Assembly: GCA_030753015.1 (NCBI GenBank)
Contig: JASMDC010000009.1
Span: 1 to 64,000 of the forward strand
DNA length: 64,000 nucleotides
Reading direction: 5' to 3'
Source of the DNA: Candidatus Undinarchaeales archaeon
Lineage (GTDB): Archaea > SpSt-1190 > JASMDC01
Positions 36,158 through 63,400 of the stretch are shown here, piece after piece. The notes beneath the pieces are model-generated. The model was given only the letters and a program-made list of their open reading frames with translations. It was not told the DNA's origin and searched no databases. The position numbers and the translations under genes were made by a program. Each line of letters begins with the position of its first letter. Within the stretch, counting starts at the first letter, position 1.

Positions 36158-39100
36158 TTATGTAATCGCGCACCCGCACGCGCAGTTCTCCGGGACCAGT
36201 TCGCAGGTGCGTGGGTTGAGCCGGAACCTGCAGGTGGAAAGGCACTCCTCGCAAATGACCTCACGGGTGCAGTTACCGGTGGTGATTACCGTGGCGATGT
36301 GCCCCTCCTCTCCATCAAGGCTGATCAGGCCCACCTCGAGCTCGGCGAATGGATGCGCAGCAGGATTGACCAGCTCGTCGAGCCAGGGACCGGCGCCGGG
36401 TGGTGTGGCCGATACCAGGAGCCTGTAGTGCTCACCGGCTACCGGTGTGAACGGAGGTGTCTCGAAGAGACTGACCGCTTTAGGATCGAGGGTCATGTCC
36501 GGTTCCTGGACCTGCTCGTCGAGGAAGGACCCGCTGGCGTCCACGGGACGGAGGAGCAGCTCACCTGTAAAGGCCACGGGCTCGGGATTGCCCACTTCCA
36601 CGTGGCCTTTTACCGGTTCGGGACGGTAGAGCCGGCTGGTGCGCACACCCCGGGCGTCGGTGAAGTAGGCGTCCCGGAGGAGCAACGATGGCCGGGCGAC
36701 CTCCAAGTAAGCGTGAGGGTACACGGTGGCCAGGTGCGCCAGGTCCTCCCGGCACCAGGATGTGAGGGAGCGGCCAGCGCATTCGTTGAGCACCTCGCCC
36801 TGTGACTGGAAGGTTGTGATGAGCACGAAACCGTTCACGTCATGGAGCTCGGCACGCAGACCGAGCACGTGTCCCGCCATGTCGTTCGTGATATTGATGA
36901 CGGGGGTCCGGAGGGTGTGGGCACCGGGCTGGTCGATGGTCACCTCGGCCAGCGAACCGTTCACCGGACCGTCGCTGCGCATCACCGTGAGATTGCCCGC
37001 GAGCGGGAACACGGTGGTCACGAGCGTCACCTCACCAAGAGCGGTGGTCCCCGGGTAGGTGCGCGTGGTCCGCTCTCCCTGCGGCGTGACGAAGTGGACA
37101 TTGACGACCGTGAGGTTGTCCATGAGGAACACGGCGTGGATGTCCCCCCTATCGTACCCGAGCAGGGTCCCGTTGTACCGGACCTCGGCGAAAGGGGCGA
37201 GGGTGAGGTTCGTGAAGCGTGCGTCCACGCGGAACGGTAGTATGGGGATCAACCTCTCGGCGTCAGGGAGCAGGGAGCCCAGCCTGAGACCGGCGACCAC
37301 CGGATGTCTGTACTCGTCGCAGGAGCAGGCGCACGTCTCCCCTCGGACGCACGGCGGGCAGGTGCAGTTGACCTGGACCTGGAACGAGAGCGAAACGTTC
37401 CCGGACACGGTCAGGAGCCCTCGGTTGCGCACGCGGACGCTCGCTCGCAGCATCTCTCCCACGTACAGGGCGCGGACCGGCTCCTCGCTGCGGAGGAGGG
37501 CCACCTCCACCTCGAGGTCGGGAGCTAGGGCGTGGCACATACGCTGGCACACCTCAGTGGAGTTCACTGCAAGGCACAGCTCCATGCAGTCCTTGATCGG
37601 CTCCTCCAGCTCCTCTTCTTCGGGATCCTTCTCTTCCTCGTCTTCAGGATCCTCCTCTTCCTCGTCGTCGATGAGAGCGTTCCGACACCTGTCCACGCAC
37701 CGCTCCTGGAGGGTGGCGTTGGTGGGGAACTCCTCGGAGCATGCGATCTCACAGGTAGGACCCTGATCGATGCATTCTGTCGTGACCGGGAGCTCGTCGA
37801 ACCCGTCGAAGCAGCACCAGCCCGTGTCCGAGGAGGCCGTCTGACACCGATCGAAGTACGGTGCAGCGAGGCCTCCGGCGGCAGGGACGCACTCATCGGT
37901 CCCGTTGGCCGACACCCTTGAGGAGTCCAGTGCCATGGTGACGTTGAACATCCGGGCGCAGCAGGCCCGGACGCGGCGTCCCTGCTCGGGATCCTCGGCC
38001 TCGCAGGGAACGTTGGTGGTGTGCCACGTCAGGCCCTCCTCGCATACGCACACGCCGGCCTGGGCTTGGCAGTGGGATGCGGACGCGCCATGGCACCGTC
38101 GGCATACAGAGGCGCAGTCCATCCCCGGGGTCGTGTAGGTGAGGCAGGCACCGTCCTGGATGAACAGGCGTGCCGGGTCCACGGTCGCAAGGACGTCCAC
38201 GACCTTCTTCGCCGCGTTCTGGTAGGCGTCGAGGTTGGCGATCTCGATGTTCAGGGGCAGGGCCGTGGCGCGACACGTACCGCACTTACTTGGCGGGCAT
38301 GCATCGGGATATTCCTCCGGTGTCACCACGATGGGTTCGGTAGGCCCGCCCCCGCCGCATGAGCACGGGCTGTCGGCCACCACGGCAGTCCACCCCTCGT
38401 CGTAGCCGTCCACGTTGCGCTTGCAGTACACCTTGCCCACCATGTACTGTGTCCCCAAGGGCTGTCCGAGGTCGAATCCCTGGCCGGAGTTCCATGCTAT
38501 CGGCTTGTCCTCCGAGATCACCACGCAGGTGCTGGTGTCCTTGGACGCGATGTTGTTCCGCCACGGGCACGGTTCCTTGGACAAGCAGAGCCTGACGACA
38601 CCCTTCCTGCAGTATATCTCCAAGCTGTCGTCGCTACCCCGCGGTCCGCTGTCATGGATGAGGTGTTGGTCGATGAGCCCTACGTAGCCGTCGTCCCGGC
38701 CTGTACAGTTGAGCTCGACAGCGGGTTTGTCGCACGAGCATGGCTGGTCGGTGCCGTTCCCGGCGCCCCTTACTGCCGCGAGGAGCACATGCTTCCCTTC
38801 AGCGGGATCGATGTGGTTGTTCGCGACCGTAAAGACCTTGCCGTCCCAGGCGTAGAACATCACCGTGGTCTTCTTCTTGACACGCCAGACGAACACCACG
38901 ATGTCCCCTTCACCATTGCCGTCGAAGTCACCGACGAGCATATTGAGCGGTGGTCGCTTATCGCACTGTTTCTCGATAGTACCACAATCGGCGTCAAGGT
39001 CATTGGCCATACGGGCAGCTACCTGGCCGATGGCGTTGAGCCGGTCGAACTCGTCAAGGGTGAGATCGGCGTTAAGGTTGTCGGCGTTACGGCGCTCCAC

Positions 39101-41764
39101 GGTGCCGCTCCAACTGTAGAAGACGGCCTCGCCCTTTGCAGAGTGCACGGCCAGCTCTGTCCGCCCGTCACCATTGAAGTCGCCCGCCGCCATCTTTGGG
39201 AAGGTCTTCGGGATGTAGAGAGGGATGAGTCGGCCAAATTCCGCGAATTCTGGTTCATATATTATGGTGTCCCCGGGGCTGGACGGACCCAACGTGCAGG
39301 GGGAGAAGGGCCAAGAGCGTGGGGGGCACGAGCGCGTGGAATAACGTGCGTCCCACACGAGATAGCTGCGTTTGTGCTCCTCCAGCTCCCATCGCTTCCC
39401 GTCGCCGCCCTTGGGTGTGATGATCCCGTTCCACCGATAGAACCGTATGTGGTCCCTCTTTACGACCACGGCCAGTTCGTCTCGGCCGTCCCCATCGAAG
39501 TCCCCAGCAGTCGTACCATGATAGATATCATCCCCTTCGATTTGGAGACGTGGTCCGTCGCGGGCCTTGACCTCACCCTTCCACCGGTAGAAGAACACAT
39601 GGTCGTCGGTGTTGTAGTTGATGGCCAGCTCGTCAGTGCCGTCGCCGTCGAAGTCACCCGCGGCCGTCCATATGATATGGGGGTCGCCCCAGCCCATGCC
39701 GTCCAGATGCTCCCCTGAGCGCTCGTGGAAGGTGCCGTCCCAGCGGTAGAACCAGATGTTGTCATCTGTCTCGAAGTTGATGGCGAGCTCGTCGCGGCCG
39801 TCACCGTCCACGTCGATGGCGGTCATACCGGTGATCCGCGGCGTACCCCAGGTCATCGGATCGAGGTGACCTCCTCTCTTCTCGTGGACAGCCCCTGTGA
39901 ACTTGTAGAACTTGACGTTGTCCGTTTCAAGAGGGATGAGTGCCATGGTGTCGCTCTTGTTATCGCTCTTCTTAGGCTGCTGGAGGTACGCCCGCCTAGG
40001 TCTCAGGAGCGATTGATCGAGGGTATCGAGCCAGGATGGTTCGGTCATCCCGCTCATCTGTAACTGCTTTGGTTTGGGGTCCTTGAACACGGGCTTCCCG
40101 TTCACCTTCCATGTCTCGCAACAGAACTTACAGTCATAGGCAACGCCCGTTTCGCCCCGACCGGCGCAGGCCGTATCCCGACAGCCGAACCCACCATCGT
40201 TGTACCCCTTCGCCACCACGAGCCATGTACCGCAAGAGGGCATACACTTGCCGTTGTCCCAGCTACAGTGGGGCTTACGGCCGTTACACACCTCGGCGGT
40301 CTCGTGCTTGCACACGCCTTTGGTCTTATTACCATCGCCTGGACCGGGTGGCTCTTTCCCCTTACGACCAAAGCACTTCCCCACGGCGAATCCCTCGCAG
40401 TACTCCTTCCATGGGCCGTCACCGGAGAGGAGCACGCCTTCGGCCTTCACACGGAGACCCGCCTTCCCGACGTCCTTGGGGACGGCGGGATCGGCCAGGA
40501 TACCGATCAGCTTCTTCAGGCGGGTCTGGAACTCGGTGATGTTGAGGTCGGCCGACTTGAACGTGGCATTGATCAGGGCCTGGAGTTCCTCAATATCCTC
40601 TTTCAAAGGTTCGGTGGCCGTGCCGTTGGTCGTGCCATTACGCACCTTGCTCACCATCTCGTCCATTGCCTTGACGAGCCCGGGGAGGAGGGTGAGGAGG
40701 TTATCCTCGAGATACGCGCGGAGCGAACCTACTTCCTTGGCGAGCTCGCACACGTTCGCTTTGGAGCCAAGAGTGCAGGCGTCGTTCACTGCACCCACCA
40801 GCCGGGTGCACTCATACACACGAACGGGTAGAGGGAGGCTTGCCCGCTGCAAGGTGCACGACCCGCCGCTCCGGCAAGGGATGCCATCGCAGAGGGGGCA
40901 GGCGCCGAGGGAGCTGTTCTTTACACCGCTCCCGCACTTACCGGGGCATGCGGTCTTGGCCGCCTTCGCGCAGGCCGACGGGTCCAACGTTCCAGGACCC
41001 TTCCCGGGACCCTTTTCAGGACCTTTTCCCGTTCCATTTCCCTTTCCGGTGTCGTTGACCGGATTCGCCAGAGCACCGCCGCACTGGGCGTATCCCTTGG
41101 CATCGAAGGCACCTTTGGTGCGCTCGCACACCTTGCAGTGCGCGTTCAGGGTGTCCTGGATGATCGCAAGATTGGTGACAAGAGCCATGTAGAACTCGTT
41201 GAACTGACCATAGACGTCCCGACTGGCCTCCAGGTATTCGACGATGTTGTCGAAATGCCGTGACTCACACTTGAGCTTAGACATGTCCAGTGGTTCCACC
41301 TTGCCCTCGACGTTCACGCTGCCGGTAAAGGTGAACGGTGGGATGAGCCCGCACATGTCCGGCGAGATACACTTATCGCCGCCCCCCTTTCTCTTCTTGC
41401 AGTTGCAATGGTGCGTGGGCAGCGTCTGGCGCCAATCGTCGTAGTCGCCGTACCGGCACTGTCCCGGCGACACCTGTTTGCCGCAGCACCACCGCTTGCC
41501 ATCGCGAAGTCTGCATCCCCCCTCGAGGTGGTCACCGAACTCTTGCAGCCCTGAACCGTTCTCCACGTTGCACACGTTGCACCGGGGCCCGTCGTATTGT
41601 AATACGGGGCCATTGTACCCGTTGTTCGTGCTGCACACTTGGTTGCAGTCCTCACCGTTGGTGGCGACCCACTCGGTGCCCCCCGCCGCTACGCTCAAGG
41701 ACGTGGAGAGCGCTAGCGCAATAACTATCGCTAGCAGGGCGTGGAGACCTTTCATCGCTGACAC
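36158..41764 (-). CDS. Giant secreted Cys-rich protein with FG-GAP repeats
   Basis: An 1868-residue protein. Signal peptide KGLHALLAIVIALALSTSLSVA; Cys-rich N-terminal third; a GKGPEKGPGKGPG linker near residue 245. At about residues 645-950 several FG-GAP/VCBS repeats occur with the Ca-binding loop DxDGDGxDE (DVDGDGRDELAI, DFDGDGTDELAI, DFDGDGRDELAV), a likely beta-propeller. A Glu/Asp-rich stretch is at about 1364-1386. The C-terminus has beta-rich domains and ends CGCAIT with no membrane anchor. FG-GAP propellers in surface proteins mediate binding and adhesion. GTG 41764 is preferred: GGAGGG lies about 11 nt upstream. ATG 41755 is an alternative. TATATAA near 41820 is a candidate TATA box. 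It is the first gene of a three-gene operon. Confidence 0.75.
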   Translation of the reverse strand: MSAMKGLHALLAIVIALALSTSLSVAAGGTEWVATNGEDCNQVCSTNNGYNGPVLQYDGPRCNVCNVENGSGLQEFGDHLEGGCRLRDGKRWCCGKQVSPGQCRYGDYDDWRQTLPTHHCNCKKRKGGGDKCISPDMCGLIPPFTFTGSVNVEGKVEPLDMSKLKCESRHFDNIVEYLEASRDVYGQFNEFYMALVTNLAIIQDTLNAHCKVCERTKGAFDAKGYAQCGGALANPVNDTGKGNGTGKGPEKGPGKGPGTLDPSACAKAAKTACPGKCGSGVKNSSLGACPLCDGIPCRSGGSCTLQRASLPLPVRVYECTRLVGAVNDACTLGSKANVCELAKEVGSLRAYLEDNLLTLLPGLVKAMDEMVSKVRNGTTNGTATEPLKEDIEELQALINATFKSADLNITEFQTRLKKLIGILADPAVPKDVGKAGLRVKAEGVLLSGDGPWKEYCEGFAVGKCFGRKGKEPPGPGDGNKTKGVCKHETAEVCNGRKPHCSWDNGKCMPSCGTWLVVAKGYNDGGFGCRDTACAGRGETGVAYDCKFCCETWKVNGKPVFKDPKPKQLQMSGMTEPSWLDTLDQSLLRPRRAYLQQPKKSDNKSDTMALIPLETDNVKFYKFTGAVHEKRGGHLDPMTWGTPRITGMTAIDVDGDGRDELAINFETDDNIWFYRWDGTFHERSGEHLDGMGWGDPHIIWTAAGDFDGDGTDELAINYNTDDHVFFYRWKGEVKARDGPRLQIEGDDIYHGTTAGDFDGDGRDELAVVVKRDHIRFYRWNGIITPKGGDGKRWELEEHKRSYLVWDARYSTRSCPPRSWPFSPCTLGPSSPGDTIIYEPEFAEFGRLIPLYIPKTFPKMAAGDFNGDGRTELAVHSAKGEAVFYSWSGTVERRNADNLNADLTLDEFDRLNAIGQVAARMANDLDADCGTIEKQCDKRPPLNMLVGDFDGNGEGDIVVFVWRVKKKTTVMFYAWDGKVFTVANNHIDPAEGKHVLLAAVRGAGNGTDQPCSCDKPAVELNCTGRDDGYVGLIDQHLIHDSGPRGSDDSLEIYCRKGVVRLCLSKEPCPWRNNIASKDTSTCVVISEDKPIAWNSGQGFDLGQPLGTQYMVGKVYCKRNVDGYDEGWTAVVADSPCSCGGGGPTEPIVVTPEEYPDACPPSKCGTCRATALPLNIEIANLDAYQNAAKKVVDVLATVDPARLFIQDGACLTYTTPGMDCASVCRRCHGASASHCQAQAGVCVCEEGLTWHTTNVPCEAEDPEQGRRVRACCARMFNVTMALDSSRVSANGTDECVPAAGGLAAPYFDRCQTASSDTGWCCFDGFDELPVTTECIDQGPTCEIACSEEFPTNATLQERCVDRCRNALIDDEEEEDPEDEEEKDPEEEELEEPIKDCMELCLAVNSTEVCQRMCHALAPDLEVEVALLRSEEPVRALYVGEMLRASVRVRNRGLLTVSGNVSLSFQVQVNCTCPPCVRGETCACSCDEYRHPVVAGLRLGSLLPDAERLIPILPFRVDARFTNLTLAPFAEVRYNGTLLGYDRGDIHAVFLMDNLTVVNVHFVTPQGERTTRTYPGTTALGEVTLVTTVFPLAGNLTVMRSDGPVNGSLAEVTIDQPGAHTLRTPVINITNDMAGHVLGLRAELHDVNGFVLITTFQSQGEVLNECAGRSLTSWCREDLAHLATVYPHAYLEVARPSLLLRDAYFTDARGVRTSRLYRPEPVKGHVEVGNPEPVAFTGELLLRPVDASGSFLDEQVQEPDMTLDPKAVSLFETPPFTPVAGEHYRLLVSATPPGAGPWLDELVNPAAHPFAELEVGLISLDGEEGHIATVITTGNCTREVICEECLSTCRFRLNPRTCELVPENCACGCAIT

Positions 41765-42162: not shown

Positions 42163-43735
42163 GTACTTGTTAAGCTGCCCGCATGCATAGCTCCCTGCTG
42201 AGCAGCTCTTTCAGTTCCCCGTACACGTTCTTTCCCTGGAATCTCCACGTAGCGACCAAGGACGCGATGTACTGGTAGTTCTCGGCGCCTTCATCAGAGC
42301 GGAAGCATCCTATGATCTTGCGCCACAGCACACATTCGCGGATGGCCTGCTCGCCGAGATTGTTCGTCGGCTCCATGCCCGGATGGGCGACGCATGTGTA
42401 CCAGCTCCCCAATCCGTTACGGATGTACGTCACCGGGACATGAAGCTCCTTGTACTTTTCGAACTTGCACACGAGCTCCTCCATCTCCTGCTCCCAGACC
42501 GCCTTCTGGCGGAGCCGCTCCTCCATCGGAGGATCCTTGTCCAGGAACCGTCTCAACTTCTTGAACTTCTGATGGATCCGCTTGCTTAGCAACTTTCCCT
42601 GCTTGGATACGCCCTTCACATCATCCACCTTCCGAAGGAGGTGGGCCCAGCATCTCTGTAGTTGGAGGAAGATGTTGTATGACTTCCACCCGTCCGTCAC
42701 GCCGATGCCGTTAGGTATCTTGCCAAGGATCTCCGCAACCACTTTCGCGCCCCGCGAGTCCCTGAGAGCGAAGAGCACATGGCCGTCGGGGTCGCGGAAT
42801 ATCCAGAGCCACCACCTCTTCCCGAGGACCGAGAAGCTGGTCTCGTCGACGTACTTGTACGGCGCTTGGGCGATCAGTTGCCTGGTTCTCTCGTACTCTC
42901 CCTTGCACGCCTCGCCCACCCGGCGCAGGACGTTGTGGACGGTGGTCGCAGTGATCGGGAAGCCGTGGACGGACTGGATGTGCTCTGCCGCCTTGCGCAG
43001 AACCCCGCGCAGTGCGTATGTGAGCATGACGATGTTGAGGATGACGTTCAGGCCAAGCTGCCCCTTCTGCGGGCACTCGGGATGGGCGGCCGTGAACTCG
43101 TGCCCGCAGTCACTGCACTTGTACTTGTTGCACTCGTACGCGGTGACGATGGGCTCCGAGGGCGTCTCGATGTCCTCGCGGACCTTCACCTCACTCTCGC
43201 CTTCAAGTTCTTCGATGTTCCCTGAACCGCAGTGAGTGCAGTGATCCGACTCCACAGGTACGTGCCGGTTCGGCACGGGCGTGGGCCGTGTGGCCCCAGG
43301 ATGGCCCTTGGGTGCCCCCCTCTTCTTGGGACCTTTGGAGCGGTCCACCTCCTTCTTGGGCTTGATCCTCTGCTGGGATGGGGGCGTGTTGGGGTTCTTG
43401 TAGAAACAGAGTTCTCTCTTGAGCTCGGTGATCTGCTTCCTGAGCGCCGGGATCTCAGCGTTCTCTGCCAGAAGGCTCTCAACGGTGAATTCAAGTTCCT
43501 CGATCCGGCTGTCCTTCTTGGCGTCAGACGCTTGAAGGGATTCAACTGTAGACTGAAGCGACTCCACAAGATGGGTCAGCAGTTCAACCTTCGATTCAAG
43601 GTTGGCGGATCCAGTGGCAAGGGGGAGAATGTCCTGTGTGTTGCATGCGCCTGGGGGTGGCACGAAGAAGTGAGAGGACAATCATCGTTTTTCTCAGTTT
43701 GCTACGCGGGAAGTGCCGCCAAGCTTAACAAATAC
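42163..43735 (-). mobile_element. IS66-family insertion sequence, complete (1573 bp)
   Basis: Bounded by imperfect terminal inverted repeats GTACTTGTTAAGCTGCCCGCA (42163 end) and GTATTTGTTAAGCTTGGCGGCA (43735 end, reverse strand), both starting GTA as in IS66. It carries one transposase gene only, like the short ISBst12 subgroup lacking the two accessory genes. It is flanked by an exact 8-bp TACGTGAG duplication. Intact ends, intact gene and exact duplication point to a recent insertion. Confidence 0.93.
42170..43681 (-). CDS. IS66-family transposase
   Basis: A 503-residue transposase. Residues about 25-110 are a coiled coil with leucine-zipper spacing, then KPKKEVDRSKGPKKRGAPKGHPGATR, a zinc-finger region (CTHCGSGNIEEL; YKCSDCGHEF), and the catalytic DDE region (YVDETSFSVLGKRWWLWIF; GVTDGWKSYNIF; a late Glu in NNLGEQAIRECVLWRKIIGC). 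It starts at TTG 43681 with an in-frame stop just upstream; an ATG at 43685 is out of frame. The stop TAA lies inside the terminal inverted repeat. Confidence 0.93.
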   Translation of the reverse strand: MSSHFFVPPPGACNTQDILPLATGSANLESKVELLTHLVESLQSTVESLQASDAKKDSRIEELEFTVESLLAENAEIPALRKQITELKRELCFYKNPNTPPSQQRIKPKKEVDRSKGPKKRGAPKGHPGATRPTPVPNRHVPVESDHCTHCGSGNIEELEGESEVKVREDIETPSEPIVTAYECNKYKCSDCGHEFTAAHPECPQKGQLGLNVILNIVMLTYALRGVLRKAAEHIQSVHGFPITATTVHNVLRRVGEACKGEYERTRQLIAQAPYKYVDETSFSVLGKRWWLWIFRDPDGHVLFALRDSRGAKVVAEILGKIPNGIGVTDGWKSYNIFLQLQRCWAHLLRKVDDVKGVSKQGKLLSKRIHQKFKKLRRFLDKDPPMEERLRQKAVWEQEMEELVCKFEKYKELHVPVTYIRNGLGSWYTCVAHPGMEPTNNLGEQAIRECVLWRKIIGCFRSDEGAENYQYIASLVATWRFQGKNVYGELKELLSRELCMRAA

Positions 43736-44632: not shown

Positions 44633-46288
44633 TTATGCTCCCGAGTAGAGCACATCGCCAGCTTGCTCGCCGAGCTCGTCCCGGCCGTCATGGTTGTCGT
44701 AGGCGACCTTACCGTTGACGAGCACGTAGTCGATGCCCTCGGGATGCTGACACGGATCCTCGAAAGTGGCATTGTCCTTGAGGTCCTGGTAATCGAAGAC
44801 CGTGATGTCGGCGCGTTTGCCCACCTCGATCGAACCGCGCTCGTCGTCGATGCCTAGCGCCTGTGCCGGCCGGTAGGTCATCATCTGGACCGCCTCGGGC
44901 AGGGTGAGAACGCCCTCGTCCCGGGCGTACTTCGCAAGCACCCGGGGGAAGCTACCATAGAGACGCGGGTGGGGCTTGCCCATGACAAGCCCGTCCGTGG
45001 ACACGGTCTGGTAGGGGAGCTGCAGGAATCTCGACTTGTTCTCCTCGCTCATGGAGTGGGCGATCATGGAGACCCCCATCTCCTCGTTCTGGAGGAGGTC
45101 GAACACGTGGTGGAACGCTTTGCGGGACGTGGGATCGATGCCCTTCTCACGGCAGATCTCGGCGATCGACTTGCCCACGTCGCCCTGGTACGGGCTGCCG
45201 TCGCTCACCGAGGAGACGTAGATGCCCTCCCAGCCCCCGTTGGAGAACTTGTAGAAGTTATCCCAGTCGCACGGTCCCTGGGCCAACATGTCATCGATCA
45301 TTTGCTCCCGCTCCAGGGGATTGGCGAGCCGGACCAGGGTGGCATCGGTCCCGCCGTCGTGGACCCATGGTGGCAGGACCGCGCCGAGCATTGTGGAGCC
45401 GGCGGTGTAGGGATACATGTCGCTTGTGACGTTCATCCCTTCATCACGGTAGGAATCGATGAGCTTGATCATCTCGTCGGCCTTGGCCCAGTTGTCGCTG
45501 CCTGCAGCCTTGAGATGGGAGATGTGTACGTGGACGCCGGTCTTCTTACCGACCTCCAGCACTTCCTTGAGCGATTCCACAACGTAATCGCTCTCGTTGC
45601 GGATGTGGACCATGAAGATGCCGTCGTGCTCGGCCACGGTGGAGCACAGTGCCTCCACCTCGGGGGAGTCTGCATAGCACGCAGGCGGATAGATGAGACC
45701 CGAGGATAGCCCATAGGCCCCCTCCTCCATGGACGATTCGAGCACATCCTTCATTCGGACGAGCTCGGCGTCGGTGGGGGCATGGTCTCCTGCGCCCATC
45801 ACGTGCTCACGCAGGGTGGAGTGACCCACCAGGGAGGCCACGTTGGTAGCGGTGTGGGCGTCGACCCTGTCGAGGTACTCCCCCATGGTATTCCAGTCCC
45901 AATCTGCGGGATCGAGGGCGCCGTCCACTCCGCCGAGCTTGCGGGCGAGTTCCTCCTTGTCTGCATCTCGTACGGGTACTACGGAGAGGCCGTCCTGGCC
46001 GGTTACCTGGGTCGTGACGCCCTGCTTGATCTTGGGTACATCGCCGCGGTTCAGCCCTTCGGGAGTAGGCTCGAACACCGCGAGGTCCGCGTGTGCGTGC
46101 ATGTCGATGAACCCGGGGGCGACGTATTCCCCGTCGAGCTGGATCACCCGGTCCGCGGACTGGCCGTCCAGGTCGCCGATGGCGGTGATGACGCCGTCCT
46201 TGACAGCGATGTCAGCACTATAAGGATCGCCGCCGCGCCCGTCAACGACGGTACCGTCGCGAATGATCAGGTCGTAATCAGGATCCAT
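44633..46288 (-). CDS. N-acyl-D-amino-acid deacylase-like amidohydrolase
   Basis: A 551-residue amidohydrolase that should remove acyl groups from N-acyl-D-amino acids. It starts MDPDYDLIIRDGTVVDGRGG. The metal HxH is in GFIDMHAHADL; later ligands are in HISHLKAAG and AHSMSEENKS, and the catalytic Asp in STDGLVMGKPHPRLYGSFPRVL. In D-aminoacylases the loop after GVTT usually carries a metal-binding Cys (GNCG), but here it reads TGQDGLS with Asp. Long family length and the C-terminal TYRPAQALGIDDERGSIEVGKRADI are normal. ATG 46288 is preferred over 46348 because a TATA-like box on the minus strand (GGTTTATATACC) lies about 30 nt upstream. Confidence 0.87.
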   Translation of the reverse strand: MDPDYDLIIRDGTVVDGRGGDPYSADIAVKDGVITAIGDLDGQSADRVIQLDGEYVAPGFIDMHAHADLAVFEPTPEGLNRGDVPKIKQGVTTQVTGQDGLSVVPVRDADKEELARKLGGVDGALDPADWDWNTMGEYLDRVDAHTATNVASLVGHSTLREHVMGAGDHAPTDAELVRMKDVLESSMEEGAYGLSSGLIYPPACYADSPEVEALCSTVAEHDGIFMVHIRNESDYVVESLKEVLEVGKKTGVHVHISHLKAAGSDNWAKADEMIKLIDSYRDEGMNVTSDMYPYTAGSTMLGAVLPPWVHDGGTDATLVRLANPLEREQMIDDMLAQGPCDWDNFYKFSNGGWEGIYVSSVSDGSPYQGDVGKSIAEICREKGIDPTSRKAFHHVFDLLQNEEMGVSMIAHSMSEENKSRFLQLPYQTVSTDGLVMGKPHPRLYGSFPRVLAKYARDEGVLTLPEAVQMMTYRPAQALGIDDERGSIEVGKRADITVFDYQDLKDNATFEDPCQHPEGIDYVLVNGKVAYDNHDGRDELGEQAGDVLYSGA

Positions 46289-46317: not shown

Positions 46318-46329
46318 CGGTATATAAAC
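46318..46329. promoter_or_regulatory. TATA-like element of the deacylase gene
   Basis: GGTATATAAACC, close to palindromic. On the minus strand it lies about 30 nt before ATG 46288 and fits a leaderless start. It might also drive the divergent gene at 46395. Confidence 0.5.
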
Positions 46330-46340
46330 CTTCCCTTTTT

Positions 46341-46362
46341 GTTACCACTCTGGAGGAGTAAC
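46341..46362. promoter_or_regulatory. 22-bp palindromic operator, copy 1
   Basis: GTTACCACT-CTGG-AGGAGTAAC-type dyad, 46341-46362, with consensus GTTACCNCT...AGNGGTAAC shared with 47419-47440. An AT-rich TATA-like run (ATATATATAT) follows directly. Thirty-two nt separate the dyad from TTG 46395, exactly the distance found for copy 2 and its ATG. A transcription factor binding here would block TBP or TFB. Confidence 0.6.
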
Positions 46363-46394
46363 ATATATATATGAGTTCTGACTACTATACTCCG

Positions 46395-47216
46395 TTGGTC
46401 TATACCGATGCCGTACAGTACGTAAAACCCAGTGAGGTATACGGCTGGGAGCACGGTGATACCTACGACGCTCTTGTCGATGTCGCTAAAGAGGGCAAGT
46501 GGGAGGAGTACAACATCCCTCCCGCCGAGGTGGTGCACTTCCCCAACGGTGTCACTAAGGACCTGCCCAACGTACATTACGTCATCGTCAACGGCCATCA
46601 CCGCCATAACGCCGCCCACCAGGCCGGAGAGAAGTTCCCGGTGCTGCCCGTGGACGTGGGGAAGAAGGGGCGAGATGGCTATGCTGAGAGCGCCATGCGC
46701 TATCATGGTGGTGGAACGTACGATTCTAAGTTCAATCCATACAAATCCATGAAGGACAAGAGCCCGGAATGGAACGCGGACGGAGTTCCTACCAAGCACA
46801 TCCTAAAGGAGTCGACCACGATCAGCGACTACTGGGATGACATGTTCAAGGTGGAGGCCCTGCGCGATCCGGGGATCCTGGAGAGCTCAATCTACGATCT
46901 CCTGCACGACAAGGCATACAAGCTTGGGCGAAAGAAGGTGGACAAAATCGACCTCCAGATAGGTAGCTCAGTGTACGACCATGCCGCCAGCGGTAAGTCG
47001 ACATCCTTCGACTACGTGACGATCTCGTACTCGGGCGACAAGGAGCACCCCGACAACATCGATGATCTACTCGAGCATGGCCGAGTGAAGGTGGGCAGCC
47101 GCTCTTTCAAAGCGAAGGACGTGGCGAACAAGCCCATCTACGATCTTCTGCCAAAGAAGGCTAGACGCGAGACACCGCATGAGATAGAGCTGGGGATCAA
47201 CGTGGATCTCTATTGA
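46395..47216 (+). CDS. ParB/sulfiredoxin-fold-like protein, copy 1
   Basis: A 273-residue protein. The N-terminal half has VKPSEVYGWEHGDTYDALVDVAKE and the core VHYVIVNGHHRHNAAHQAGEKFPVLPVD, like the DGHHR motif of ParB/Srx-type domains. The C-terminal half (QIGSSVYDHAASGKSTSFDYVTI) is specific to this pair. It is about 50 percent alike by eye to the gene at 47887. TTG 46395 (reading MVYTDAV) is chosen: it aligns with MTYTDAV of the paralogue, gives similar length (273 versus 274), and keeps the same 32-nt distance to the palindrome. ATG 46371 overlaps the TATA-like run. Function unknown; ParB/Srx folds occur in nucleases, CTPases and modification-linked proteins. Confidence 0.7.
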   Translation: MVYTDAVQYVKPSEVYGWEHGDTYDALVDVAKEGKWEEYNIPPAEVVHFPNGVTKDLPNVHYVIVNGHHRHNAAHQAGEKFPVLPVDVGKKGRDGYAESAMRYHGGGTYDSKFNPYKSMKDKSPEWNADGVPTKHILKESTTISDYWDDMFKVEALRDPGILESSIYDLLHDKAYKLGRKKVDKIDLQIGSSVYDHAASGKSTSFDYVTISYSGDKEHPDNIDDLLEHGRVKVGSRSFKAKDVANKPIYDLLPKKARRETPHEIELGINVDLY

Positions 47217-47371
47217 GGCCAACTTCTTCATGAATAATCGTACTAGCGGATATGCCCTACTCTCGATACCTTGAGATGGGGAAATTAGTTAATCTCGGAA
47301 CACTCATACCTGATCACGTTCTATTGATGGTTCAATGGGCCTTCGTATGCTGATTACAGGGATGAATAACC

Positions 47372-47395
47372 ATGGTTTCAGTGAGGTGAAACCAT
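47372..47395. promoter_or_regulatory. Perfect 9-bp inverted repeat in intergenic region
   Basis: ATGGTTTCA-GTGAGG-TGAAACCAT. It lies 23 bp upstream of operator copy 2 in a 256-bp gap (47217-47472). It could be a second protein-binding site or the terminator of the upstream gene. No coding potential was seen in the gap. Confidence 0.4.
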
Positions 47396-47418
47396 CCGGA
47401 ACAGTGGATGTGCTACTC

Positions 47419-47440
47419 GTTACCACTCAACAGAGGTAAC
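47419..47440. promoter_or_regulatory. 22-bp palindromic operator, copy 2
   Basis: GTTACCACT-CAAC-AGAGGTAAC, 47419-47440, same dyad as 46341-46362, followed directly by a TATA-like run (ATTTATATATA at 47441-47451). Thirty-two nt separate it from ATG 47473. Confidence 0.65.
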
Positions 47441-47451
47441 ATTTATATATA
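47441..47451 (+). promoter_or_regulatory. TATA box of the 47473 operon
   Basis: ATTTATATATA abuts the palindrome and lies 21 nt before ATG 47473, as expected for a leaderless transcript. Confidence 0.55.
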
Positions 47452-47472
47452 GGACGAACTATCGTCGCTTGT

Positions 47473-50176: not shown

Positions 50177-51928
50177 CTAGTGCCCCCGGGGGAACCATAC
50201 GTCACCGATGACATGATGACCCAGGTATCGTCGGACGATGTTGTCAGGACCGAACCGACGGACGATGCAGCGTATGAGGTCGCGGGTCGTACGTGTGGCC
50301 CTGGCATGCTCCATTACCAGGAACGAGCATCGGTTACCGGGTGAGATCGAGACATCGCGGCCGAGCACCTTACCGCCGCTCACGGTGGCCATGTGTAGCG
50401 CTTCCCTGTCGGTGAGCCTGCAGCCCCTGGCAAGGAGCTCCATCTCGCGGAACAGGTTGGGAGAGGACACGAAGCTGTTGTCGGTCCCAAGCCCGACCTG
50501 GAGCCCGGCGTCGAGGAGGTCCCTCACGGGTGGGAGCCTATCGGTGAGGGTGAGGTTGGAGCGTGGGCACACGATGACGGACATCACTGCGTTGGCCGCG
50601 CACGTAGCGTGCTTCGGCAGCGCGTGCGTCATATGAACAGCGATGTCGACCCCGAGCTCAAGGGCATTATCCAGCTGCTCGGGTCGGGGGGCCTCGAGCA
50701 CGTGGGCGGCCACGGGTTTGTGAGCGCGGTGAGCGGCCGACACCATGTCTGCGTCCAAGCTGCTCGGGCTCGCGGCTCCCAGACCGTCCGCCTCCATGAC
50801 GACCGATGCGAGCTCCTCCGGATTGTCGGCACGCCCCAGAAGGATCATATCAAGCGGTGCATAGGCAATCGCTTCTCGGGCGAGACGGACACCTACCAGC
50901 CCGCCCTCGCGGAAGTCCGATGCGACACCGATACCCATCCGGACCATCTCCCATGTGGTCTGGCGCATGGCGCTTGCAAGCATCCCTGGCGGGGTTTGTG
51001 CGAGCAGGCGGTGCTTGAGCCCATTCGGCGGCGCCACGAGCTCCTGGAGCGGGACGCTCTGGCCGATGTCTAGGAAGGCGCTGTCCCCCAGATGGACGTG
51101 GGCGTTGACCATGGACGGGATGATGATGCGGTTCCGCCGGTCACCGGCCACGGGACCCTCCTCGATCGATTTGATGACACCATCGCGAACCACAACGGCA
51201 CCCTCCACGGGCTCAAGCTCGGGCCCTACGAGGGCGACACCCTCCTCGATAAGGTCCTGGGCAGGGACCTGTGCACAGAGGCCCTCGACCATGGATGAGA
51301 ACCATGCCTCACCCTTGGCAAAAGTGGCATGACGTGGATCCCCCATGACGCCTGTGTTGGACCGGGCGAGGTTCAGACCCCCGTGCGGGCGAGGGCCCGT
51401 GGTAAATGTGTCCCACTGGGGCGGTGCTGGTTCCACGACCACGGTGCTCGGGTCCGAGCCGAAAAGGAAGGCGGCCAGTGATCCCTCGAACTCACCGGCG
51501 TGGCAGCACCCGCCCGGCGAGGAGTCCCGCATCGAGTTCACCAGGTCGCGGTCCACTAGGTGCCATGTGTGGAGGACCGTCACCCCTTGAAGCCCCTCCA
51601 CTGCCTGTTTGTTCCCCCCGTGTCCGTTGATGACGAATATCTGGCCTTCCAGTGAGCCCACAAGGTCCTGAATATAGGTGTGAAGCGACTCCGCCGATAC
51701 TGAGACAGTCCCCGGCCTGGCACTATGCTCGTGGCTGTCGCCCACTCCCACCAATGGAAGGACCAGCGCTCCTGTGCGGTCGGCTACAGCCGCCACTAGG
51801 CGCTGGGCCACCATCGCGTCCGTGCCCAAGGGGAGATCGGGGCCATGGCCCTCCAGCGAACCCACAGGGACCAGGATAGGGCGGACCACGTATCCAGCGC
51901 GGGGTGATGCCTCCTCCGAGGCGTACAT
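50177..51928 (-). CDS. Creatininase-family and amidohydrolase fusion protein
   Basis: A 583-residue protein with two enzyme domains. Residues about 15-225 are creatininase-like: VPVGSLEGHGPDLPLGTDAMVA, HEHSARPGTVSVS, FVINGHGGN and HAGEFEGS. The metal-site His usual after the GHGP motif (PHLPL) is Asp here (PDLPL). Residues about 230-583 are an amidohydrolase of the cytosine/guanine-deaminase type: NAHVHLGD (HxH), PVAAHVLE, VHMTHALPKHA and GLGTDNSFVSS. Archaeal creatininase homologues include the formamide hydrolase ArfB of riboflavin/F420 biosynthesis, and amidohydrolases deaminate purine-like rings; a pathway link is possible but unproven. The minus-strand TTTATAAT (about 51955-51962) is its likely TATA box. 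Confidence 0.82.
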   Translation of the reverse strand: MYASEEASPRAGYVVRPILVPVGSLEGHGPDLPLGTDAMVAQRLVAAVADRTGALVLPLVGVGDSHEHSARPGTVSVSAESLHTYIQDLVGSLEGQIFVINGHGGNKQAVEGLQGVTVLHTWHLVDRDLVNSMRDSSPGGCCHAGEFEGSLAAFLFGSDPSTVVVEPAPPQWDTFTTGPRPHGGLNLARSNTGVMGDPRHATFAKGEAWFSSMVEGLCAQVPAQDLIEEGVALVGPELEPVEGAVVVRDGVIKSIEEGPVAGDRRNRIIIPSMVNAHVHLGDSAFLDIGQSVPLQELVAPPNGLKHRLLAQTPPGMLASAMRQTTWEMVRMGIGVASDFREGGLVGVRLAREAIAYAPLDMILLGRADNPEELASVVMEADGLGAASPSSLDADMVSAAHRAHKPVAAHVLEAPRPEQLDNALELGVDIAVHMTHALPKHATCAANAVMSVIVCPRSNLTLTDRLPPVRDLLDAGLQVGLGTDNSFVSSPNLFREMELLARGCRLTDREALHMATVSGGKVLGRDVSISPGNRCSFLVMEHARATRTTRDLIRCIVRRFGPDNIVRRYLGHHVIGDVWFPRGH

Positions 51929-57432: not shown

Positions 57433-60400
57433 TCAACCCTCACGTCCGTTCGCGGTGACGGTGCGCCGGCGCGTCCTCCGTGCCAGGAACAGACCTGCCA
57501 GGGCGAGCAGGAGCGCGACATCCACCGCGCCCACGCCGGGAGCTGTTGCCATGAAGGCACTACCGCTGGCGTACACGACACGCACGTAGAACTTCTTCTC
57601 GTTGAGTCGCTCAAGCGAGTCCGCGTCCACGACGTAGATCTCGATGAGACCTGCAGAGGTGAGCTTGTAGGGATTGATCTCCACCGGTATGGTCTTCGAC
57701 TCGCCGGGGAAGAGGGTGAACGCCTCTTCCTTGAAGGTGGACCACATCTCCTCCTTGTGGAGCTTGAGCACGAGGTTCATAGGCTGGGTCCAGTAGTTCG
57801 TGACGTGGGCTCCGAGGAGGAACGTCTCACCTACGAAGGTCGACATGGTGTTCTCGACGACATCGGCCTTCCCGGACATCTTACGCACCTCCAGCTTGAC
57901 GAACTTCTCGAAGGAGAACACCGTCTGGTAGTGGGCGTCGGTGTAGAGCATGCAGATGCCCGTCTCAGGTGCTGGCGTGCCCTCATACTCGCACTGGTCC
58001 GGCGCTGCCTCCTGGGTGCAGAAGTGGCACATGGGCAGGGTGGCGGTGATTGTCATCACCGGTCGCGGTTCGTTGGTGACCAGACCGGAGACGTCGCACA
58101 GGAACACGCCGGAGCCCTGATGAGTACAGGTCTTCTCGATGTTCTTGTAGGAGAGGGTTGCCTGGCACATATTGCACCGCTCCGGCGCGCCGCCGTGTTG
58201 CTGGAGGTAGGATGACACGACCACGTGGAAGGCGATCTTGACGTCCTTCTTACCGCCGGGCAGCGTCTGCTTGCGCACCTTGATGTCCTTGACCGAGATG
58301 GCGGGGATGGGGCCGTCCCTGGGGTGGCACAGCTCGCGCTCGTAGCCGAGAGTTGAGGATAGCACCTGACACCCGGTCTTGGAACAGGTGTAGTATCCAC
58401 CGTCGATGTAGTCGATCTGACCCTCGGTCTCGTTGAAGAGGGCTTTCTCGTGGTAGTAGCAGTTGAGGGTCGTGACATTCACGGTACCGGGGTACGGGCA
58501 GTTGCCTTTGAACACGTCATCGGACCAGTCGAATCCGTCGTAGGCGTCATCCCCGTCGTCCTTGCAGATGTCCCCGTACTTCTTCTCGTCCTTGTCGAAG
58601 GCGTGGTAGCATGTGTGGGTGGCGTTGTCCAGGCACCAGCCCTCGGTGGCGACGTCGATGCTGATTGGCTTCTTGTTCTTCAGCTCCTGGTTGAGGCGGA
58701 AGCGCGAGTTGTCTGCGGCGTTCGCCTTGTCGAGCTCGAGCCAGGTGCACCGCTGGCGGTGGCTGGCGTCCTGCGGTTCCACGGGCGCCTGGTGGCAGCC
58801 CTGGGAGTCGCAGTCGGTGGCCTTGGACCAGTCAGATCCGGTCTCCGAGTCCTTATCGTCCCAGAAGTAGCAGGTGAGCTGGTAGTTCTGCTTGTTGCTG
58901 ACGAGGTTGTAGATATGGCCGACGATCTCCACGTCACCCGCGCCGTCGCAGTCCCTGGTCTCCTGGCTGTCCACACCGAAGAAGTCGTTGTAGTTCGTCG
59001 AATCGATACCATTGTAGAGCTTGTTGTCCACTTGGCTCGTCTTGTTGACACCCTTCTCGCAGTAGTGGCAGTAGTCACGGCTGTCCGAGTAGTAGTAGAA
59101 GTTATCGTTATCCCCGTCGTCACCACAGCACGGTGCCTCGGCGTTTGTACCCGCTTCGTCGTGGAGGCCGCCGTCGCCGATGTCGGGGTGGTCGTCGGGC
59201 TCGAACCAGGCGTGTTTGTTGTACTTGTCCACATCATAGCTGCGGGCACGCCAGGACAGGCAGTGGCACGCATTGGCGCTGACGTCGCCGCCCTTCTTGC
59301 CGCCGGTCTCTGTCGAGTCGTAGCAGGTACCGTTGGACACGCAGTCCATCTCCCGCGGGCAGCAGGCGAGGTAGTAGTTGTACGTCTTACCGCTGGCGAA
59401 GTTGGGCGCGTCCGAATCCTGCCATGAGCGCACACCTATGTTGTCGGCCGGCACGCGGTGGAGCGAGCCTGTGCCCGTCCCCTCCGAGCGCAGGGACCAC
59501 TCGCTGCTGTCGTCACCGCAACATGCGCCCTTTGAGTCCGAACCGCCGTTGTTGACCGAGGTGCCGTACTTGACGTCCCACCAGAGGCCTTGGTCCTTGT
59601 TCTGGCTGCCGGTCGAGGTGTCGGAGAAGCATCGGGTATCGCAGTACCTCCAGGCGATGGACGCATCATCGGCCTTGCTCTGGCCGGCCACATCCCGGTT
59701 ATTGTTGTTGAGGTTGTCGTAGTCGACGTAATACATCTGAGAGTATGCCTTCTCGTTGGAGTTGGGGAGTCCCGTCGGATCGTCGCTCGTCGGCGTGTCG
59801 TCGAAGTAGCGGTTGCGGTTGCTCTTGCCGGAGTAGCTCGAACCGCCCATGGCACGGTTCTCGCCGTAGTACTGCCACAGCATCTTGTACTGATAGCTCC
59901 CCTCCTGGGTGCACATCTCGAGCGGGTCGGTGGTGCGCTTGATTGGATCGTGGTTGGTGGGTGTCGTCGTGATGGTGTTCACTGATATCTTGTTGTCCGA
60001 GGTGCCATCGTTGAGCACGTAGGTGAAGGTGTAGCTGCACGTCTCCTTGCCGTACTCGCTCGTGCCGATGCGCCAGGTTGTGGGACCTCCACCCTCGTTG
60101 ACGCAGGTCATGGCAATGTCCTTACGGTACTCGATCCCGTCTGGCTTCTTGAACGAGTAGGTGCCGTCCGTGTCGTAGCCGCAGTAGTAGTAGCTCTGGC
60201 ATGTACCGGTGCGGCAGCCTTTGCGGTCGCCGGTCTTCTGGTCGTCGCAGGAGTTGGGGCAGTTGGAGATCTTGCTGGCCCCGATTTCGACGGCGTTGTT
60301 GTCACAGCAGTAGGTGTTCACGGGCGTCTTGCCGGGAATCGAATACTGGAACTTGACATAACCGTAGTACCAGCTGCTGACGGTGCAGGCTGTGAACTCC

Positions 60401-63400
60401 TTCGAACAGTGGGCATAACACCAGTCGGAGTCGGACGTGCCACTGGCGCGGGAGTAGAAGTCACACTCGATCTGTTTCATGTTGTCGTTATACCTGCATG
60501 TCGTCTTCTTGTTCTTGTACGTGGCACCGCACTTCAACTCCCCGCAGTTCAGGGATACCTTGGGGCTGCTGGCGTCGCCGTTGTAGAGCTGCTCGTCCTG
60601 ATCCCAGAGGAAGAGGAAGGGGGCGACGGAGGCTATATCGACCCACTCGCCAGCCCGGCAGAACTCCTTCGGATTGTCGTTGTCCACGTTCGCGAGGTAC
60701 TCGTGGTGGTAGCACTTGTTATTGTACACACAGTCCGTGGCCGTCGGACAGCACGCGATGTCGTCCGCGGACGCGTCGCATGCGTTGTCGGTCTCGGTCT
60801 CGTCGCTGTGACACTTCAGGTAGAACTCGTTGGCATCGTCGCCGCAGCACGTATCAGCGCTCGCTGTCGATCCACCGTCGTTAAGGGCGATCTTGTACCA
60901 CGATCCGTCGTTCTTCTTGGTCTTCGTGCCTCCGCCGAGGTTCCAGCCGACGCCCTGGTCGTTCGCATGCACCGTTGTGTCGTCGAAACAGGTGGCCGAG
61001 CAGTAGCGGTCGGCGTCAACTGTCGCGGAGGCGTAGGTGCCGGGATCGCCCGGTGGTGCCTTGTTGACATTGCCGTGGTTATCGAAGTTGACCTTGTAGA
61101 TGGTCGTCCAGTCGTACTCCTCAACAGTTGTCTTTGAGCTCGCACCGCCACACTCGCCATTGAAGTAGAACTTGGATTTAGCTTCGTACGTGCCCTCGCG
61201 CTCGCAGTGAGCTCGCTCGAGGTCCTTCCACTCCATCTTGCATTTATCGGAAAGAATCTCATTGTTGCCCTGGCAGCTGGACTTGGGGCAGGTCAACACC
61301 TTCCATCCGCCAGAGAGGTCGACCTTCGAGTCCTTGTGGCGTATCTTGTAGTACCCCGGCGAGCACCAGTAAGCGTTGATAGGCCCTTGCCACTCCGGGG
61401 TAACGATAGGTAGGTCGTCGCAGGTCTTCCCATTGAAGATAAACTCCGACTTCACAGTGTACCGTCCCGCGATCTTGCACGAACCATAGCTCCACGTGGG
61501 ACAGTCATTGGTAGTGATCTTCATGACCCTGTTCCCGCTACCGTCCTCCTGGCAGAACTTGTTCGCACCCTTACCGGGGCAGTCGAGGATTCCGGAGTTG
61601 GCCTCCTCGGTGCCGACACCGTTGTAGATGCGGTGGCGGATCTGGACCGGAGGTTTGGACGCCCAACATCTGAAGATCTTGTTGTTCTTGAACGTCTCCG
61701 CCGTGGTGCGGAAGGCCGTCTGTTTGCAGTTCTTGCCGTTGTAGGTGAAGTCGACCTGGGCCCGGTACCAACCGTCCTCGGTGCACGTGTCGGGGAAGGA
61801 GAACGTCTCACACGTCTCTACGCGTGCCTCGCCGCTGCACGAGGTCAGGCAGCTTGCGGTCTTGTCGAACACGACCTTGTTGCTGGGCGAGTAGATACGG
61901 ATGCGGGCATTGTCCCGGCGCAGCTTCCACACGCCGTTCTCGCACAATTCATTATATCCGTCGCCGTCGGCGTCCAGGTCGTACCCGTTGTCGAAGCACT
62001 TCCCGTTGCTGACACAGTCGTAGCGTGACGAACAGCATGCCTTGTTGTCGCTGTGGCGACAGGCCGATGGGGTCGCTGACTTCTCATCATCGCTGGTCTC
62101 GCACGTGCGGTACCACTCGTTGTTGTCATCACCGCAGCATGAAGAGGAAGCGGTCTCCCCACCAAGGTTCCAGGCGATACCGTTGTCGTGGGCGCCCGTG
62201 GTCTTGTCGCCGAAACAGGTGAGCGAACAGAAGATGCCGCTATGGGCGTCCCAGTTCACGTTGTACTTGACTTCGTCGATGTCCTGGTACGTGGCCGCCA
62301 GCGCCCTCCCGTCCCAGTTCTTTCCCGAATAGGACATCCGGCTCACGAAGTGCATGTCCCCCTCGTAGTCGCAGCGTTTGTTCATGCTACTATGGGTGAT
62401 ATAGGGCGAGGGGTCCCAGGTGTACGAGCACGGGATCACGAGCGATTTGTGCGTGGGATCGTGGGAGAACTGGTCGGCTGTGTCGGTACAGGACATGTCC
62501 TTCCAGTTGAGGAGCGTCGTACCACCGACATAGATCTTGATCTTGGCAGTGGTGTCGAGAGCGCACGAGAACACCTTCATCTTGCTGTCCTCGACCCAGC
62601 TGCTCGTGTGGGGGAGGGCTGCTCCGTTGACGCACGAGTTGCCCTTGTGGGTGACCTTGGCGCGGACGGTGTAGTACCCGTTGGTCTGCGAGCAGATCGC
62701 CTTCTCCGGGACGGTGTACGTCTCGCAGTCCGACATGTAGGTCCCCCCGTCGCACGACGTGTCGCACTTCTTCTTGGGGCTGGTGTGAGCGAGATTTCCG
62801 TTGGGATGGTAGACGTAGTAGTAGACCTCGTCATCGATGTCACAGAAGTAGAGGTTCGTCTTGCTCAGTCTCGATTTCACGTTCGATGTGGGGCGGTTCT
62901 GGCATTCGGGCCGGTTATGCAGTATGTCCACCTCGGCCTGGTAGTAGCCTGGGATCTTGCACTCGCTAAAGTCCATCGTGCACTCGTGGTATGTCTGCGC
63001 CTCATTGCCAGTGCCCGAGGGGCAGCTGGTGGCACAAGTGACGTCGTAGGACTTGATCTGGCCAGCGGTGTAATGGAAGATGCGGTACTTGGCCTTCTCG
63101 GGCAGATCCTGCCATACGCCGTTGACGCACTTCTCCTCGGCGTTATCGCCATCGATGTCACCGATGTGGTTGTTGTTGTAGCAGTTACCGAAAGCCACAC
63201 AGTCGTACTGGGCGTTGCAGCATGCACTGTTGTCACCCTTACAGGCGTTCTTTACCAGCTCGTCGGTCTCGCACTTGCGGTACCATTCACTGCCATCGTC
63301 ACCGCAACAGGTGGTCGATGCGGTCTCGCCTCCGATGCTCCAGGCGATGCCGAAGTCGTGGGCACCGGTCGTCTTGTCATTGAAACAAGTGGGCGCAGAG

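Follow-up and report, generated by a model that had tools for sequence, protein, structure and literature searches.

Two palindromes before neighbouring genes, at an identical distance from two start codons, raise the question of whether one regulator acts on both promoters and which protein it might be. The window is the whole stretch of 64,000 nucleotides analysed here (C117:1-64000), and the genome searched is the one it belongs to (G000; 3.85 Mb in 117 contigs). The positions of the features are listed in Table 1.

Table 1. Positions of the two operators, their promoters and genes, and the candidate regulator gene
Feature	Position	Strand	Remarks
Operator 1, GTTACCACTCTGGAGGAGTAAC	46341..46362	+	Counted among the 29 sites of the genome with <=2 mismatches to KTTACYAYTN4ARTRGTAAM
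TATA box TATATATA of gene 46395	46364..46371	+	31 nt ahead of TTG 46395
Target gene 1, 273 aa, TTG start	46395..47216	+	ParB/Srx-like stretch VNGHHRHNAA
Operator 2, GTTACCACTCAACAGAGGTAAC	47419..47440	+	Right arm GTAAC in the BRE position
TATA box TTTATATA of gene 47473	47442..47449	+	31 nt ahead of ATG 47473
Target gene 2, 134 aa	47473..47877	+	No family
Paralogue of target gene 1, 274 aa	47887..48711	+	51-54% identical; 9 nt after gene 2
TATA box (TTTATATA read on minus strand) of divergent amidohydrolase gene	46321..46328	-	
Divergent Amidohydro_3 gene	44633..46288	-	D-aminoacylase/amidohydrolase type
P0001, TrmB-family protein gene	G000:C73:10415-11191		Best candidate regulator

Direct reading of the sequence confirmed that both palindromes are followed by one A and then a TATA box, and that each ends exactly 32 nt before its start codon (TTG 46395 or ATG 47473). 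The consensus given by the initial annotation, GTTACCNCT...AGNGGTAAC, is exact at the second site and has one mismatch at the first, where the right arm reads AGGAGTAAC. These two sites are the only matches to that motif in the window at <=3 mismatches, and two matches were found in 0 of 100 shuffled windows (mean 0.10). The proposed start of the first gene at TTG 46395 is also well supported, since its alignment with the downstream paralogue 47887 extends back to that codon and no further. In BLASTP, the alignment of the 281-aa longer reading with the paralogue begins at residue 9, which is TTG 46395 (LVYTDAVQY over MTYTDAVVY), and the alternative upstream start, ATG 46371, overlaps the TATA box itself. 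Judged by its position, the gene would be leaderless; it had no Pfam match. Gene 47473 probably heads a two-gene operon in which 47887 would be co-transcribed. The Rfam search of the window gave no matches.

Elsewhere in the window, an IS66-type transposase gene lies near this region (42170-43681, minus strand). The minus strand also encodes two very long proteins, one of 1868 aa with FG-GAP repeats (36158-41764) and one of 2159 aa without any Pfam match (57433-63912), and a 583-aa protein that appears to be a fusion of creatininase and amidohydrolase domains (50177-51928).

The search of the genome for further copies, which the initial annotation had proposed, returned about 29 sites. The consensus GTTACTACT-N4-AGTAGTAAC was matched at 28 places at <=3 mismatches in the whole genome, against 1 for the reversed-pattern control. 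The GTTACC version of the initial annotation was less specific (24 places against 12 for its reversed control, whole genome), and the exact motif was dropped as a genome consensus for this poorer specificity. A relaxed consensus, KTTACYAYT-N4-ARTRGTAAM, gave 51 places against 15 in the control, with 29 distinct sites at <=2 mismatches. It was the better matches of the GTTACC version that pointed to the more symmetric consensus, and the window sites are weaker representatives of the family found across the genome. At <=1 mismatch the 20-bp core occurs 12 times here and 0 times in the control, while 393 other archaeal genomes were at background, and the motif was not found in the genome's own class at strict settings. 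The sites are spread over about twenty contigs, the flanking sequence differs at almost every site, and the motif is not frequent in coding regions, nearly all good sites lying in promoters. The operator family is genuine, with about 29 copies close to the start signals of many genes, and it supports the earlier proposal of a shared DNA-binding regulator for both window promoters.

Three arrangements relative to the TATA box cover nearly all good sites, the counts being our own reading of a table of site contexts in which all good sites were read. In class A (12 sites, including both window sites), the TATA 8-mer starts 1 nt after the palindrome and the operator arm GTAAC/GTAAA sits at the BRE position, as does the right arm GTAAC of operator 1 (46358-46362) together with A 46363. 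In class B (10 sites), the palindrome starts 2-3 nt after the TATA box, between it and the start codon, and mostly ends shortly ahead of the latter. In class C (5 clear sites), the TATA box starts 11-13 nt after the palindrome, so that the palindrome is shifted upstream by one helical turn. The histogram of TATA positions, in which self-complementary TATA boxes count on both strands, is sharply peaked, and within 150 nt hardly any other position is occupied. The BRE was deduced from the promoters of classes B and C, in which it is not covered by the operator; generic promoters, of which only 7 were usable, were uninformative. It reads mostly GAAAN or GTAAN, and its register matches that of the operator arm GTAAM. 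Three weaker sites with 3 mismatches (L032, L033 and L034) end 2-3 nt before ATG.

This geometry accounts for the 32-nt spacing, which is genuine and is found again at two further sites (L020 and L022) but is no special distance. The spacing is equal because the operator overlaps the BRE and abuts the TATA box, which fixes all three relative to one another, and because the start codon coincides with, or adjoins, the position where transcription is expected to begin. The transcripts from these promoters would accordingly be leaderless.

The predicted targets of class A are the ParB-like gene 46395, the 47473 operon, and genes for an M28 peptidase, a TldD/PmbA peptidase, a HAD hydrolase, an APH-type kinase and several orphans. 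Those of class B encode a HAD hydrolase, a DnaJ-domain protein, a metallophosphatase, a xylose-isomerase-like barrel and orphans. Class C and other sites precede genes for TFE, a DHH protein, a HAD hydrolase, a TrmB-family protein (P0001) and the glucan hydrolase (GH15) divergent from it. An M18 aminopeptidase gene also has a site, and an S-layer protein gene is preceded by a weaker one (3 mismatches). No single pathway covering these targets was found. An operator that fits the relaxed consensus with 0 mismatches lies upstream of the gene for the basal transcription factor TFE (L008, C24:72625), so the regulon may extend to the general machinery of transcription. At L030 and L034 (C73:103338 and C73:21491), two class-I glutamine amidotransferase-like genes that are paralogues of each other (47% identical) each carry a variant site that stops 2 nt short of the start codon. 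In the window, the divergent Amidohydro_3 gene is a possible second target of operator 1, which, read on the minus strand (L002), lies 12 nt upstream of the amidohydrolase TATA box (TATA at +12, ATG at +52). On contig C34, a paralogue of this amidohydrolase that is 45% identical over the first 238 aa also diverges from an operator of class A.

Among the proteins of the genome, P0001 is the most likely to bind the palindromes. It is the best PF01978 match of the genome (3.6e-24) among 20 TrmB-like stretches, the PF01978 DNA-binding domain being present at E 9.9e-24 (83 bits against a 25.6-bit cut-off), and its PDB matches are TrmB (3qph) and TrmBL2. An operator, GTTACTACTCTATAGTAGTTAG, lies in its own promoter (C73:11238), upstream of the gene, and P0001 alone among the 20 TrmB-like loci has a site. 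By our own estimate, the chance that some TrmB gene falls among about 30 site-bearing promoters is roughly 10%, so autoregulation in this genome is weak evidence taken alone. The effector (sugar) binding domain PF11495 had no match in P0001 at E<=0.1. A sugar response is therefore not implied, and the protein is classed with the TrmB family for its DNA-binding part and not as an equivalog of the sugar-sensing TrmB/TrmBL1. Its score against the TrmBL1 equivalog is 52.6, far under the cut-off of 650. TrmB relatives were not found in a collection of genome contigs.

Outside the genome's class, another archaeal genome (G059) has a single good site, upstream of its best TrmB gene. The homologues of this gene within its class formed a test set, and their upstream regions were scored against the G000 consensus. 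Seven of the 11 related TrmB genes carry the motif upstream at shuffle p<=0.03 (four of them at 0.005, the limit of 200 shuffles), and counting L192 at p=0.09 gives 8/11. Because the G059 gene, one of the 11, prompted the choice of group, the independent count is 6/10 at p<=0.03 with G059 set aside. The best matches of L195, L196 and L197 (p 0.015-0.03) are less clearly the same motif. When a longer upstream stretch was read, the palindrome was seen to abut the TATA box in the register of the window at L190, L191, L192, L193, L196 and L201. At p<0.05 both controls were negative, with 0/5 in a second TrmB group and 0/6 among other G000 genes of the TrmB family. In the genome's own class, 1/16 TrmB genes had the motif at p<=0.01 and a few were borderline, most being without it. 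In the tree, P0001 groups weakly with the motif-bearing set, on a long branch (85/78 support). The promoters of a second TrmB subgroup (L202-L206) carry another palindrome, roughly TTGTTGT...ACAACAA, which suggests that autoregulation through subgroup-specific operators is common in these archaea.

The preferred reading, which we consider fairly probable on the sequence data, is an autoregulated TrmB-type regulon of about 25-30 promoters, with P0001 as regulator and mainly repression by blocking TFB or RNA polymerase. The palindrome would be the operator of one dimeric winged-helix regulator, whose dimer would cover it and would also control the P0001 gene. At class A promoters, including those of the window, the arm GTAAC(A) would replace the BRE and the dimer would compete with TFB; since the arm occupies the BRE, binding of the dimer and binding of TFB/TBP should be mutually exclusive. 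At class B promoters, an operator between TATA and start codon would block the loading of RNA polymerase, and at about five class C promoters activation might be possible from sites one helical turn upstream. The predicted sign is repression, presumably lifted when some effector releases the regulator.

Repression at class A and B promoters has published parallels in TrmB at malE, whose site overlaps BRE/TATA (PMC4158304, PMC4706686), and in TrmBL1 acting downstream of TATA (PMC4706686). With P. furiosus TrmB (site TACT-N3-AGTA; PMC4158304), P0001 shares the Pfam winged helix and a Tyr-Asp in the recognition helix (VYD). As at malE, the palindrome with a TACT...AGTA core overlaps or abuts BRE/TATA, where repression by hindering transcription factors is predicted. 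Unlike in P. furiosus, the operator is longer (GTTACTACT-N4-AGTAGTAAC), occurs in about 29 copies before diverse targets, and its candidate regulator has no PF11495 sugar domain. The regulon resembles that of TrmBL1/Tgr in being global, with about 28 promoter sites upstream and downstream of TATA, but the TGM motif of these regulators is TATCAC-N5-GTGATA (PMC4706686), 12 sites here abut the TATA box at exactly 1 nt, and P0001 falls far below the TrmBL1 cut-off. Haloarchaeal TrmB (Halobacterium site TACT-N7-8-GAGTA; PMC4158304) shares the TACT half-site, the family and BRE-overlapping sites at repressed genes, an arrangement tied to repression in Haloarcula (PMC10817205). It differs in spacer length and in having the sugar-sensing domain, and a gluconeogenic theme was not seen among the targets here.

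The same operators and the same type of regulator could also be used in two directions, with activation at the upstream sites, the window genes included, and repression at the downstream ones. A position rule of this kind is documented for P. furiosus TrmBL1 and T. kodakarensis Tgr, sites here lie on both sides of TATA, and some are about 11-14 nt, or one helical turn, further upstream. The BRE-like arm could then reflect recruitment of TFB by the regulator, and the M28 and TldD/PmbA peptidases as upstream targets would fit activation in the absence of sugar. However, the arm overlaps the BRE at the 12 abutting sites, an arrangement tied to repression (PMC10817205, PMC4706686), and P0001 is without the sugar-binding domain, which leaves this dual use unlikely, if still worth weighing. 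That the operator is read by some other regulator of the winged-helix type, such as the HTH_24/ArsR-like protein of contig C73 (L030), is decidedly improbable. A site with 2 mismatches does lie upstream of its gene, but comparative support for it was not found, TrmB genes of another class do carry the motif, and the TACT...AGTA core resembles known TrmB sites.

The neighbouring ParB/Srx-like proteins, which the initial annotation had put forward as binders, did not hold up in this role. Their genes are close by and the second paralogue has a weak parB_part match, yet this match is below threshold (E 0.0014, 18 bits against a 58-bit cut-off), spans 37 residues and concerns the 47887 paralogue only. 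Profile searches found no HTH family in either protein (46395 or 47887), and no ParB-like relatives were found in viral contigs. The genome has two copies, both at this locus, whereas the sites lie on about twenty contigs. As no DNA-binding family was found and both copies are here, the proteins are best seen as targets and not as regulators; binding by them is extremely unlikely, and the TrmB-family gene elsewhere is the better candidate. It is just as far-fetched that the palindromes arose by chance or were brought into promoters as a mobile repeat. The window has two copies only and the transposase gene is nearby, but such an origin is contradicted by the enrichment (28 against 1 in the control) and the geometry, the register to TATA being fixed; the flanks also differ almost everywhere.

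The genome of 3.85 Mb compares with 0.6-1.1 Mb in all nine relatives from its phylum that were compared. Its MCM protein is closest to records of Woesearchaeota, Nanoarchaeota and Nanohaloarchaea, and as these best relatives are only 50-54% identical, the genome can be called 'DPANN-like' at most. Either this is a DPANN-like archaeon of very large genome size, or the bin includes foreign contigs (contamination is listed as 5%). The literature search found no paper joining DPANN and TrmB, and a search for the motif letters found no relevant paper. Systems of this type are known, but no description of the present regulon and its DNA code seems to exist, the operator being apparently new and the target set private. 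With P0001 as its regulator, a TrmB-type protein without a sugar domain may serve as a global autoregulated switch of about 30 promoters in an unusually large genome, and the operator arm may itself be the BRE, read alternately by TFB and the repressor, an idea advanced tentatively. For an archaeon that is uncultured and probably DPANN-like, the results provide an operator code that can be tested, together with a candidate regulator and a list of targets. They assign start codons to orphan genes and support leaderless translation from TTG, and one operator type links a TrmB subfamily across two archaeal classes.
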